Under the pieces are notes generated by a model that saw only the letters and a program-made list of their open reading frames with translations, was not told the DNA's origin and searched no databases. 21,292 bases of DNA from positions 1-21,292 of IMG/VR virus record IMGVR_UViG_3300046460_000307. One strand, 5' to 3'. Origin of the DNA: a virus. The position numbers and the translations under genes are program-made. Shown here one piece after another: positions 2,616-21,292 of the stretch (its first letter is position 1; each line of letters begins with the position of its first letter).

Positions 2616-3457
2616 CAGGCGCGTCCGATCCGCTTCGAAAAGGTGATGAAGTAGGACAGGTAGCCCAGCGCGCGGCGGCACACCGGCAGCTCCAGTGGTT
2701 TGCTCTGGCGGAAGGTCTGCCGGGACTCGCCGATGTTGTCCTGCACCAGACCCTCGCGGCGCTTGGCCTCGACACTGTTCCCGCCGAGGATTGCGTCGGC
2801 TTCAACCACTTGGGCCTTCTTGAGCGCGTCAACAAAGCGAGTCGGCAGCGATGCGAACTGGTCAGGGCGCAGCAGATCCAGGTTCCCGTTAAACAGGAAC
2901 ATCGAGCTGTCGCCGACGTAGCTGGTGTCGTAGACGCCTTCGGGGATGAAGTTCAGGCTGTCCTGGCCCCAGTTCACGTTCGAATTGAGCGGCGTGAAGG
3001 AAAGCTGGACGATGTGCGAGCGCGCATCCATCAGGGCGGCGATGCGCGACTGTTCGTCGGCGCCGTTCCAGCCGTCCAGGTTGGGCAGCGAGAGAGCGGT
3101 GAATTCGGCCTGAGCATAGGTCATGAACGAGTTGGTGCCGACTACAAGCGGGTCGCCCTCCTCGATCGCGTAGGAGGCACGCAGGTAAATGCTGTTGCCA
3201 CCCACAGTGCATGCGAGGACGACGTTGCGCATGCCGCGCGCTACGCCGCCGCCCAGAGTGTTTTCCGCCGCAGCGACGGTGATCACGGCCGTGTCCGAAC
3301 CAGCAATGAAGCCGGCCAGGGGCATTGCCGCCACCAGCTCGACGTTGCTCTCGTCCGTCACACGGTATTCGATCGCCGACACAGCCAGCGGATTGCCGCT
3401 TTTATCTTGCAGCGGCACCGACAGCGTTACATCCGTCCCTGCGGAGAAAACGTCCAT
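2615..3457 (-). CDS. Head-tail adaptor / connector-type virion protein
   Basis: The 280 aa product seems to have two parts. The N-terminal ~100 residues look like a beta-sandwich ('DVTLSVPLQDKSGNPLAVSAIEYRVTDES'). The C-terminal part is helical and resembles gp6-type adaptor proteins: 'NSFMTYAQAEFTALSLPNLDGW', a DnaT-like '...ALKKAQVVEADAIL' and the end 'RQSKPLELPVCRRALGYLSYFI...GRA'. Adaptors of this type form the ring under the portal. The start at 3457 has AAAGG at proper distance inside the end of the previous gene. The two-part build may be a fusion of a decoration-like and an adaptor domain, which is an inference. Confidence 0.65.
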   Translation of the reverse strand: MDVFSAGTDVTLSVPLQDKSGNPLAVSAIEYRVTDESNVELVAAMPLAGFIAGSDTAVITVAAAENTLGGGVARGMRNVVLACTVGGNSIYLRASYAIEEGDPLVVGTNSFMTYAQAEFTALSLPNLDGWNGADEQSRIAALMDARSHIVQLSFTPLNSNVNWGQDSLNFIPEGVYDTSYVGDSSMFLFNGNLDLLRPDQFASLPTRFVDALKKAQVVEADAILGGNSVEAKRREGLVQDNIGESRQTFRQSKPLELPVCRRALGYLSYFITFSKRIGRA

Positions 3458-14486: not shown

Positions 14487-14515
14487 TTGAAAATAAGTCA
14501 GTGATGACTTATACT
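14487..14515 (+). promoter_or_regulatory. Helicase promoter with operator 9 in the spacer
   Basis: TTGAAA (14487-14492), 17 bp and TATACT (14510-14515) face the helicase gene. The operator TAAGTCA-GTGA-TGACTTA (14494-14511) fills the spacer. The predicted start is near 14522, leaving a 26 base leader without a good Shine-Dalgarno. Confidence 0.8.
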
Positions 14516-14547: not shown

Positions 14548-16284
14548 ATGACGAAAACCATCACCATCCTGTCGAACGCGACGGTCGCAAAGCTGCACAA
14601 GCCCGACCGCGACGCGAAGCTGGCCGTCCAGGCGATTCTGTCGTATGCGGTCGACGGCGCCGAACACGCGATCGCCTTCAAGCGCGGCAACTGGGATGGT
14701 CGCAGCTCGTTCATGGACTTCAAGGGCGCAACCTTCCCGGCCGGCTTCGTCCACTTCGTCGCGGCGAAGTTGCGTCAGCAAGGCTACGAGGTGCGCCTGG
14801 CGCGCAAGCCGCTGCCGACCCCGATGGGGCCAGAGCTGCCGGTCATCGACGCGTTCGGCTACGAGGGCCGCTACGACTACCAGCCCGAGGTCATTCGCCG
14901 GCTGCGCAAGCACGGCCAGATCATTGCCCAGGTGGCAACCGGCGGCGGCAAGAGCCGGATCGCCCGCATGGCCTTCGCAAGCCTGAATATGCCGACCCTG
15001 TTCCTGACCACGCGCGGGATTCTGATGTATCAGATGCGCGATACGTTCGAAAAAGACCTGAAAGTGGGTGTATCGGTGCTGGGCGACGGCCAATTCGGTC
15101 ACACGATCGTCGAGAACGGTGTCGAGCGCCAGGCGGTCAAAAAGATGTGCGTCGGCATGGTGCAAACCCTAATCGCCCGCCTGGAAGAAAAGACGGTCGA
15201 TGGCGAGATTGAACGCATGGTCGATCTGCGGCTGGCGAAGGAGGCGCGCGAGACGAAAGCCCTGCTGAAGAAGTGCGGGGACGCGAAGATGTCGCCGGCG
15301 GATACCGCGCGCGCGCTGGACGCGCTGGACAAGAACCACGACGCGGTGCGCCCGACGGCCAAATACCTGACCGAAGTGGCGTCCGTGAAGGTGAACGCCC
15401 ATATGCGCGACCGTGCGAAGACTATCCAGCTGCTCGGCATCTTCGGCCTGGTCATCCTTGAAGAAGCGCACGAAGCCTCTGGCAACAGCTACTTCGAAAT
15501 CCTCAAGCACTGCAAGAACGCCCACTATCGGATGGCTCTGACCGCTACGCCGTTCATGAAGGACGATGAAGAGTCGAACATGCGCCTTATGGCATGCTCT
15601 GGTCCGATCGCGATCAAGGTGCCGGAGATTACGCTGATCGACCGAGGCATCCTGGCGCAGCCGCACTTCAAGTTCATTCGCCTGGCTCATAAACCGAAGG
15701 GCCTGCTGCGCCACACCGGCTGGGCCGCCGCATACCGGCTTGGCATCGTGGATAACGAGTATCGGAACGGCCTTATCGTCGACGAGTGCGTGCGCTTCGC
15801 CGGCTACGGTCTGTCCTCCATGGTGCTGATCCAGCAGACCGCGCATGGCAAGAAATTGGACGCCCAGATGACAAAGGCAGGGCTGCGCGTCGAGTTCATC
15901 CAGGGCGAGGATGACCAAGAGGGCCGCAAAGCCGCTCTGGGGCGCCTGGCGCGCGCTGAAATCGATGTCCTGATCGGCACAACCATCTTGGATGTGGGCG
16001 TTGACGTGCCGGCCGTGGGTCACGTCTGCCTGGCCGGCGGCGGCAAGGCCGAGGTCGCTCTGCGTCAGCGGATTGGTCGCGGTCTGCGTGAGAAGAAGTC
16101 CGGCCCGAACCTGTGCTTTGTCACCGACTTCGCCGACGACTTCAACGAGCACCTGAAGACCCATGCCAAGCAGCGGCAGGCCATTATCAAAGGGACGCCA
16201 GGGTTCGACCGCTACATCCTGGAGCACGGCGCCGACTTCGACCTGGAAGCGCTCGGCTACAGCAAAATGTTGGAGGCCGCGTAA
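14548..16284 (+). CDS. SF2 DEAD/DEAH-type helicase (UvsW-like)
   Basis: The 578 aa product is a DNA/RNA-dependent ATPase of helicase superfamily 2. Motifs: I ATGGGKS (130-136), II LEEAH (304-308), III LTATP (331-335) and VI QRIGRGLR (507-514). Motif II reads EEAH rather than DEAH. An N-terminal ~100 residue region (NWDGRSSFMDFKGATFPAGF) resembles the T4 UvsW N-domain. A ~110 residue helical insert (about 190-300) sits between motifs Ia and II. UvsW-like enzymes unwind branched DNA and R-loops and help switch from origin-driven to recombination-driven replication. It is a single plus-strand gene, closed by the bidirectional hairpin at 16295-16321. Confidence 0.9.
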   Translation: MTKTITILSNATVAKLHKPDRDAKLAVQAILSYAVDGAEHAIAFKRGNWDGRSSFMDFKGATFPAGFVHFVAAKLRQQGYEVRLARKPLPTPMGPELPVIDAFGYEGRYDYQPEVIRRLRKHGQIIAQVATGGGKSRIARMAFASLNMPTLFLTTRGILMYQMRDTFEKDLKVGVSVLGDGQFGHTIVENGVERQAVKKMCVGMVQTLIARLEEKTVDGEIERMVDLRLAKEARETKALLKKCGDAKMSPADTARALDALDKNHDAVRPTAKYLTEVASVKVNAHMRDRAKTIQLLGIFGLVILEEAHEASGNSYFEILKHCKNAHYRMALTATPFMKDDEESNMRLMACSGPIAIKVPEITLIDRGILAQPHFKFIRLAHKPKGLLRHTGWAAAYRLGIVDNEYRNGLIVDECVRFAGYGLSSMVLIQQTAHGKKLDAQMTKAGLRVEFIQGEDDQEGRKAALGRLARAEIDVLIGTTILDVGVDVPAVGHVCLAGGGKAEVALRQRIGRGLREKKSGPNLCFVTDFADDFNEHLKTHAKQRQAIIKGTPGFDRYILEHGADFDLEALGYSKMLEAA

Positions 16285-16764: not shown

Positions 16765-16782
16765 TCACTCACCGATGACTTA
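16765..16782. promoter_or_regulatory. Operator 10 at +1
   Basis: TCACTCA-CCGA-TGACTTA abuts the -10 box, the same geometry as operator 4 at the capsid promoter. The right arm is perfect and the left is degenerate. Confidence 0.72.
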
Positions 16783-18659: not shown

Positions 18660-18709
18660 CGTTCCCGCTGCCAGTGGCGAACAAACAAACGAATGCGAAG
18701 GAGTGGAAT

Positions 18710-19453
18710 GTGGAATTGGTATCACTCTGCAAACTTGCGGCAAAAAATATGCAAGAAACAGTGGACCGCCTCGCGTCTAGAGTTACCCCGCCCCAGCTAA
18801 TGAAGATTAACGGGCATCCCCAGATGCGATACCCGGAGAAGACGATTCACCAGGCAATCGTTCTGAAACTTGCCAGGCTGGTAAGCAATCTCAATGCGGC
18901 ACAACTGCTGCTGGATAGAGGATATGTCACTGAGCAGGCCGCCATTCAGCGAATGCTTGACGAAGGAAGTGAAGACGTTACCTTCCTTTCATTTGCCGCG
19001 ATTGATGGTGAGGTCTCGGATTTGCATAAAAACTTCCTTGATGCCTTTTGGGAAGAGGAATTCGACGCGCCGACGCCAACTGCGTCTACTCAAAAAAGGC
19101 AGAGCATTCCCAGATCCAAAATAAACGGCTGGATCGCTCGACATAGATTCTCCGGCCAAGATGAGAGTAGCGGGATCGCGGTTACAAAGACGGTTCACAA
19201 AACGTATTCAGGATATATTCACGGTGCGGCCCCACACATATTGGACCTTTATGGCGGTCTACCGCCGCGATTTCATATGACAGGGATGCTCGGCACGCCG
19301 CGGCACAGGGACCATTCAGATGATCTGCTAAATTATTATTATCGAGTCATTGCGGCCATGGCGTTAGCTGCGAAGTCATTTGGCGACGATAAGTTATTTC
19401 GCGATATCCGCACCTTCTCGATGGAGTTTTCTCGAACTGCGGGCTTGGGCTAA
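18710..19453 (+). CDS. Accessory protein of unknown function, 247 aa
   Basis: The start is taken as GTG 18710 because AAGGAG lies 6 bases before it; a GTG at 18674 has no ribosome site. The product is helical, with 'AIVLKLARLVSNLNAAQLLLDRGYVTEQAAIQRMLDEGSEDVTFLSFAAI' followed by 'KTVHKTYSGYIHGAAPHILDLYGG'. The helix pattern with a late Y-S-x-Y-I-H-G reminds me loosely of DUF5677-type proteins, but this is not secure. Base use is visibly more AT-rich than its neighbours (e.g. AAAAATATG, ATTATTATTATC), which suggests separate acquisition (a moron). It converges with the LexA-boxed gene; their stop codons overlap and no terminator is seen. Confidence 0.6.
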   Translation: MELVSLCKLAAKNMQETVDRLASRVTPPQLMKINGHPQMRYPEKTIHQAIVLKLARLVSNLNAAQLLLDRGYVTEQAAIQRMLDEGSEDVTFLSFAAIDGEVSDLHKNFLDAFWEEEFDAPTPTASTQKRQSIPRSKINGWIARHRFSGQDESSGIAVTKTVHKTYSGYIHGAAPHILDLYGGLPPRFHMTGMLGTPRHRDHSDDLLNYYYRVIAAMALAAKSFGDDKLFRDIRTFSMEFSRTAGLG

Positions 19454-19788
19454 ACTTGCGGACTGTCGATGGATGGCGCCTCGTCCGGAATGAATTGCAG
19501 GCGCCAGGACATCGCGGTGAACTTGCGCGACACATCGTCCAGCTCTAACCCGCTGATCGTCAGCTCGACACCCTCTCCATAGCGCAGCACCGCATCGTAG
19601 AGCGGCGGCACCATGTTTTCGCCACCTGGCCCCAACAGAGTGGCCAGGTAGGTCGTGCGGAGACACTGCTTCAGGTAGTGCTCCTGATAGCGGAAAACCC
19701 CAATCGCGAGCTTTGGCGGCATGGCGAGCCGGTGCCTTGCCAGCGGTCTACCGCCATCCTCAAAAAGTAGCCGAACGACCGCACGCAT
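19450..19788 (-). CDS. SOS-controlled small protein, 112 aa
   Basis: The product (MRAVVRLLFEDGGRPLARHR...) has no domain I recognise. It seems to be alpha/beta with 'YQEHYLKQCLRTTYLATLLG' as a helix and 'AMSWRLQFIP' as a strand. GGAGG precedes the ATG, and a LexA-type box (19803-19824) lies 15 bases upstream, so expression is expected to rise on DNA damage. In temperate phages small LexA-controlled genes often encode antirepressors or repressor inactivators (e.g. 186 Tum, N15 AntC type). That role is a reasonable hypothesis here but not shown by sequence. Confidence 0.6.
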   Translation of the reverse strand: MRAVVRLLFEDGGRPLARHRLAMPPKLAIGVFRYQEHYLKQCLRTTYLATLLGPGGENMVPPLYDAVLRYGEGVELTISGLELDDVSRKFTAMSWRLQFIPDEAPSIDSPQV

Positions 19789-19802
19789 ATTGCCTCCTGC
19801 AA

Positions 19803-19824
19803 ATACTGTATAAAATCACAGTAT
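19803..19824. promoter_or_regulatory. LexA (SOS) box
   Basis: ATACTGT, 8 bases (ATAAAATC), ACAGTAT: CTGT (19806-19809) and ACAG (19818-19821) with N8 and extended symmetric flanks fit the gamma/betaproteobacterial LexA consensus very well. It lies 15 bases before the ATG of the 112 aa gene; TATACT/TATACA elements inside it may be the -10. Confidence 0.88.
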
Positions 19825-20415: not shown

Positions 20416-20676
20416 TCAGTCATCCACGGCGGTCACGCCTTCTTGGGGGCGCCAGCGCGCCTCCAGCAGGGCCACAACCTCATGCCCCATTTTCACCTTG
20501 CGCCGCGCGCAGTCGATCTTCATCGCGGTATGCAAGCTCTCGGGAACATCGAACGTCAAGCGCTTGATGGGCTCTGGGGCGTCGCCAGTCGCCCGGTTCT
20601 CGACCCAGTTGTCACTCGCGGGTGGCGACTCGACGCGCGCGGTCGGGCGAGTCCCAAAGGTCACTTTCTTGTTCAT
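20416..20676 (-). CDS. ParA partner, putative ribbon-helix-helix centromere-binding protein
   Basis: The 86 aa product starts MNKKVTFGTRPTARVESPPA and overlaps the ParA stop (ATGA). After an unstructured N-terminus it has 'IKRLTFDVPESLHTAMKIDCARRKVKMGHEVVALLEARW' (residues ~37-76): a strand then two helices, the ribbon-helix-helix layout of ParG-like partners. Such small proteins replace ParB in type Ib partition: they bind the centromere and stimulate ParA. Its target could be upstream of parA, outside the window, or, less likely, the dispersed palindromes. Confidence 0.75.
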   Translation of the reverse strand: MNKKVTFGTRPTARVESPPASDNWVENRATGDAPEPIKRLTFDVPESLHTAMKIDCARRKVKMGHEVVALLEARWRPQEGVTAVDD

Positions 20677-21292
20677 GCCAGATACTCCAAAATTTCCGTG
20701 GCGAGGGCGTGCGTCTCGGTGCTGGCCGGGCTGTCCGGATCTACCTCCCACACCGCCTGGCCGGCCGCAGCCGCCTCGGCAAACACCACGCGCTGCGTCA
20801 CCGCCGAGCCAAGGACGTGCAGCGGGTAGGCGGACAGGGCATCACGCACGTCACGCCCGATGGCCGTATTCACGATTTTGCGGTTAATCGCAAAGCAGGC
20901 TTTCAGGTTTTCCTTAAATACGCGCGCCTCGTCGACCAGCTTGATGATTTCCTCGGCCGCCCAGATGTCGTAGGGTGAGGGCTGCACCGGCACGACGACC
21001 AGATCCGACGCCAGGATGGCAGAGCGGGCCAGGTCAGTCACACGCGGCGGGCCGTCCAGGATCACGATATCGTAGCCGGCGCCGATCGAGACAATCTCCT
21101 TGTGGACCGATGCACGCGGCAGTCCGACAACGGAGAACAGGGCCTCACCCTCGCGCGCCGCCGCCCAGTCCAAGGCACTGCCTTGCGGGTCGATGTCCAC
21201 CAGGAGGACGCGGTGGCCCATCAGGGCATAGCACGCGGCAAGGGCGATGGCGAGCGTGGTCTTCCCCACTCCACCTTTCTGGTTCAGCAGTC
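20673..21292 (-). CDS. parA: ParA partition ATPase (5' end beyond window)
   Basis: About 205 residues are visible and the gene runs off the right edge; probably only a few N-terminal residues are missing, as the first visible codons read LLNQKGGVGKTT, the deviant Walker A. Then 'VLLVDIDPQGSALDW' (Walker A') and 'YDIVILDGPPRVTDLARSAILASDLVVVPVQPS' (Walker B region) follow. It is a small ParA without N-terminal HTH, matching type Ib systems. It moves plasmid copies over the nucleoid with its small partner encoded next. A partition pair next to phage structural genes argues for a plasmid-state prophage. Confidence 0.9.
   Translation of the reverse strand, partial: LLNQKGGVGKTTLAIALAACYALMGHRVLLVDIDPQGSALDWAAAREGEALFSVVGLPRASVHKEIVSIGAGYDIVILDGPPRVTDLARSAILASDLVVVPVQPSPYDIWAAEEIIKLVDEARVFKENLKACFAINRKIVNTAIGRDVRDALSAYPLHVLGSAVTQRVVFAEAAAAGQAVWEVDPDSPASTETHALATEILEYLA

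Follow-up and report, generated by a model that had tools for sequence, protein, structure and literature searches.

The LexA-boxed gene of the stretch analysed here, a viral DNA of 21,292 nucleotides referred to as the window, is best read as a stand-alone, LexA-controlled accessory of SOS damage tolerance in Burkholderiales mobile elements, whose 112-aa product would be a partner in the SRAP/ImuAB pathway. We give this reading a probability of about one half. A damage-response accessory gene is more likely than a switch that wakes the phage, which is what the first-pass annotation had proposed. Small SOS-induced genes of mobile elements decide the outcome of DNA damage, which may be repair, mutation or the release of phage. 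The gene belongs to an uncharacterised family with close ties to LexA boxes and to SRAP and ImuAB. This family, found in 25 of 62 genomes of the genus Massilia, is a candidate for an unrecognised part of damage tolerance.

The LexA box and the 112-aa gene

The LexA (SOS) box is located on the minus strand at positions 19804 to 19823. These 20 bp read TACTGTATAAAATCACAGTA on the plus strand and TACTGTGATTTTATACAGTA on the gene strand. They contain an exact CTGT-N8-ACAG core and agree with the E. coli consensus TACTGTATATATATACAGTA at 16 of 20 positions, including 12 out of 12 in the outer part, TACTGT...ACAGTA. Most Betaproteobacteria use CTGT-N8-ACAG as their LexA box (PMC6595937; PMC3323433), and as in a LexA-regulon gene it stands here at the gene start. 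The spacer between the box and the ATG at 19788 is exactly 15 nt (19789–19803). Within it, a perfect Shine-Dalgarno sequence, AGGAGG, can be read from the sequence at 19793 to 19798 (minus strand), 4 nt ahead of the ATG. Both the near-perfect box 15 bases from the start and the strong ribosome site, as first annotated, are hereby confirmed. A scan for sigma-70 promoters between 19400 and 20100 found none.

A LexA weight matrix was trained on the boxes of the relatives, with the window's own site left out. It gives the box 28.1 bits, while the runner-up site in the window obtains 3.8 bits and the top site in 100 Markov-1 random windows 11.9 bits. The window contains a second exact match to the core, at 3192 (CTGTTGCCACCCACAG), which scores -1.2 bits and is a chance match. 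The earlier remark that no other LexA box exists in the window is thus right in substance.

The gene itself runs from 19450 to 19788 on the minus strand and belongs to an unnamed, SOS-controlled protein family, as judged from its ORF, its relatives and its predicted all-beta fold. The next gene encodes a 259-aa protein of unknown function (18674 to 19453, plus strand), for which scans of profile libraries gave no family match. As this gene is convergent and overlaps the 112-aa gene tail-to-tail by 4 nt, the latter has no downstream operon partner and is a single transcription unit.

Conservation of the LexA box

An exact CTGT-N8-ACAG box is present at the gene start in 32 of the 51 family members with upstream sequence, mostly within 20 nt of the start, and 15 of the 24 clusters at 50% identity contain a boxed member. 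The other ORFs of the same loci were used as a control; only 4 of 640 have an exact box, and one of these four is the ORF of an ImuA-like gene (L138). In 19 of the 51 members, among them those of the P2-like prophages L087 and L104, the exact box is missing. All three copies on Massilia plasmids carry an exact LexA box just ahead of the start, and each of the two divergent members found in SSU5-like relatives lies behind a box of its own. Because the relatives retain the exact box at the start (32/51 versus 4/640), the 112-aa gene very probably belongs to the SOS regulon, and the LexA control that had been proposed for it is well supported at the sequence level.

In a chromosomal subfamily (L178, L181 and L185) the start codon lies within the LexA box, TACTGTACGC-ATG-TACAGTA, which as a whole reads TACTGTACGCATGTACAGTA. 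The proteins begin with MYS; these first residues are encoded by the operator, the same letters serving as box and as N-terminal codons.

A simple course of events can be proposed from the conserved box. Host LexA, bound to the box beside the ribosome site, would keep the gene off. Upon DNA damage RecA would become active, LexA would cleave itself and a burst of the 112-aa protein would follow.

A family of Burkholderiales mobile elements

A tblastn search reveals relatives of the window protein on three Massilia plasmids, at 33–39% identity, and further members are found on viral contigs. Stepwise profile searches join these proteins into one coherent family. Its members are about 105 aa long, have near-invariant G, A, L, G, Q and W residues and occur in Burkholderiales phages, in plasmids, conjugative or mobilizable ones included, and in chromosomes. 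The branches of the family were united via profile searches (E 5e-7 to 2e-5) and common residues, as the SRAP-linked branch shares just 16–19% identity with the window protein.

The window protein has no match in Pfam, NCBIfam, PHROGs or PADLOC. PHROG 5560, of unknown function, is matched by 20 of the 27 scanned family members (best E 1.2e-11) but not by the window protein by itself; its entry holds neither a function nor a mention of LexA control. A search of the class with phrog_5560 gave two marginal matches only. When phages were searched with tblastn, the window protein, L150 and L138 gave zero matches, while L105 gave a single weak match in phage PG1, which the family HMM confirms at 73 bits. 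Nothing was found by a profile search of PDB sequences. Apart from the unnamed PHROG, the family is undescribed in the libraries and in the papers found. It is a new family of a known kind, the SOS accessory genes of mobile elements. The hypA and hypB genes, described as LexA-regulated hypothetical genes of Betaproteobacteria (PMC3323433), could be related to it. In one locus (L160, 3839–4594) two family domains are fused in tandem within one ORF, with an exact LexA box ahead of it.

SRAP and ImuA/ImuB neighbourhoods

On the Massilia plasmids, the family gene comes first and lies 5–7 nt ahead of imuA (L003) or of an ORF for an ImuB-type Y-polymerase (L002, from Massilia sp. WG5; assigned by PF00817), an arrangement that points to co-transcription with imuA/imuB. 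In the window, however, the next gene is convergent. Beside the family gene of the plasmid L001 a polymerase relic remains.

A gene for SRAP (PF02586) adjoins the family gene in at least 10 loci and in several arrangements, e.g., divergently around the LexA box in L157–L159 and, in L149, with both genes on one strand. The annotated Pseudomonas phage PG1 (L168) has a SRAP gene that ends 2 nt upstream of the family gene, and an integrase adjoins. The family gene is also often located at the edge of prophage contigs, where its neighbours encode a tyrosine integrase and SRAP. Many members stand alone (L105–L110), so the link to SRAP or Imu is frequent, not universal. The 21-kb window contains neither SRAP nor imuAB, while about 90 kb of the element lies outside the record.

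Aravind et al. (2013, PMC3765255) present the SRAP and ImuA/ImuB neighbourhoods as established SOS-mutagenesis contexts, and a word search of their paper shows no comparable small family. The relatives share with these systems a LexA-boxed place beside SRAP or at the head of an imuA/imuB operon. However, the family is distinct from both SRAP and ImuB-C, and the window gene stands alone.

The SOS damage-tolerance pathway in which the relatives are housed is the abasic-site shield SRAP (HMCES/YedK type) together with the ImuA-ImuB translesion module. We suggest that the 112-aa protein is probably a protein-binding partner in this pathway; we infer both the partner and the molecular step. With its help the element, or the host, would replicate past lesions. 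More tentatively, and with somewhat less confidence than for the window gene, it can be speculated that the whole family is a new general SOS component of Burkholderiales mobile elements. Its proteins, small beta-domains, would partner either SRAP or the ImuA-ImuB mutasome, and the gene would travel with its own LexA box among phage-plasmids, prophages, conjugative plasmids and chromosomes, giving each of them its own lesion bypass or abasic-site protection.

The position ahead of imuA/imuB on plasmids is also what a modulator of the SOS response could show. ImpC, which is DinI-like, heads the plasmid impCAB operon in a similar position. A small protein of the DinI/PsiB/ImpC kind would bind RecA filaments or LexA and tune the duration of the SOS response, and hence mutagenesis and prophage induction. 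The small size of the family proteins, their presence on many kinds of mobile elements and a tight LexA box of their own, as for dinI, agree with such a role. However, neither the window protein nor the 27 family members match a Pfam SOS modulator, the DinI family included, and the predicted fold, described below, is all-beta, while DinI has an alpha/beta fold. We consider a modulator unlikely.

A different role is suggested by the members without a partner gene, of which there are several. A gene that is small, stands alone, is tightly repressed by LexA and has a strong ribosome site often encodes an inhibitor of growth or cell division. An SOS-induced protein of this type, or one for host takeover, comparable to SulA or to Fil/Dhr of phage 186, would halt division during repair or during replication of the element. 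However, no similarity to known inhibitors exists in the libraries searched, and the position in imu operons and beside SRAP suggests repair. The chance that the protein is such an inhibitor is slight.

Predicted structure

The AlphaFold2 model of the window protein is an all-beta domain with a pLDDT of 79.6, and that of a SRAP-linked member is likewise all-beta, with a pLDDT of 87.1. The two separate models concur on a six-stranded all-beta domain. No enzymatic or DNA-binding motif is recognisable in the 112-aa protein, and the model would agree more with protein binding than with an enzyme or with a helix-turn-helix regulator. We propose that this small, probably all-beta domain binds a protein of the damage-tolerance pathway discussed above.

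Foldseek searches with both models against PDB and BFVD gave no match under E 0.001. Weak matches to PH-like/Ran-binding domains were not taken as a sign of function, as the best DALI-scale Z-scores of the two models, 6.3 and 6.7, are tied with many other rows and fall below the stated noise level of the tool.

The host element and its operators

The terminase of the element is at most about 90% identical to those of the nearest viral contigs, 75% to those of A. baumannii phage-plasmids and about 61% to that of SSU5. Judged by its terminase, portal and ParA genes, the element falls within the SSU5-like phage-plasmid group. By these genes it is a temperate-type SSU5-like phage-plasmid, and the temperate nature assumed earlier is borne out. 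Since full SSU5-like members are about 105–120 kb long, the 21-kb record is a fragment. The element resembles SSU5-like and Acinetobacter-type phage-plasmids in its terminase and in the ParA-type partition gene in the window. It differs in its LexA-boxed gene, which is an accessory there, with a divergent member in only 2 of 34 relatives.

The palindrome AAGTCA-N4-TGACTT (AAGTCANNNNTGACTT) occurs 10 times in the window with at most two mismatches, at 149, 708, 3961, 4977, 5020, 7636, 9653, 12497, 14495 and 16766, while 0.36 copies are expected. In 10 of 16 relatives (G459–G486) there are 17–30 copies per genome with at most one mismatch, compared to 0–1 for a control pattern. The ten dispersed operators of the first-pass annotation do exist, and the palindrome is a putative genome-wide operator set. 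The copy nearest to the LexA-boxed gene is that at 16766; none is close to the gene.

The proposed antirepressor role

The same annotation had suggested that the gene encodes the missing link between DNA damage and these operators, i.e., an antirepressor. After cleavage of LexA, the protein would bind the phage repressor, the AAGTCA-N4-TGACTT operators would be freed and the lytic cycle would start, as for Tum of phage 186, AntC of N15 and GftA/GfoA of the Gifsy phages. These precedents are small LexA-controlled proteins (PMC3121763; PMC11652158), and the 112-aa gene resembles theirs as a small phage gene right behind a LexA box. The dispersed operators of the element are real. Further, no self-cleaving S24 repressor (Peptidase_S24) is present in 16 relatives, so another link to damage may be needed.

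However, the family does not travel with a repressor and operator system. It has members in only 2 of the 34 related phage-plasmid records, many of which are fragments, though the full-size ones are enough for the argument from absence; full-size relatives with 25–30 operators lack the family. Unlike the known antirepressors, its members do not sit beside a repressor. Where they head imuA/imuB operons, in chromosomes or on plasmids of the conjugative or mobilizable type, there is no phage repressor to lift. In prophages their neighbours are SRAP and an integrase, and no phage immunity repressor was seen next to any family member, the one exception being a small XRE-type regulator that precedes L105. 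In the window itself, no operator lies near the gene.

Sequence comparison points the same way. The family HMM had no match under E 0.29 in a very small set limited to 186 Tum and certain N15 proteins. Moreover, sister phage-plasmids carry LexA boxes directly ahead of other, unrelated small genes (L196, 105 aa; L204, 77 aa). From these unrelated boxed genes and the occurrence in 2 of 34 records, the SOS gene resembles cargo that can be exchanged rather than an obligate partner of the operator system.

We therefore regard an antirepressor as improbable. Of the proposed SOS-induced lytic switch, the LexA control, the temperate-type element and the operators stand, but the antirepressor of the ten operators is unsupported. 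The 112-aa protein may have a secondary effect on induction. As a caution, not every LexA-boxed phage gene is a lytic switch.

The operator regulon is a puzzle apart from the LexA-boxed gene. One exact copy of the palindrome, at 14495, lies just upstream of a gene for a UvsW-like helicase (14548–16284). The ParA gene (20416–21269) is followed by a small gene whose product weakly resembles a 56B-like ribbon-helix-helix protein, and the two are probably the partition pair of the phage-plasmid, cut at the end of the window.
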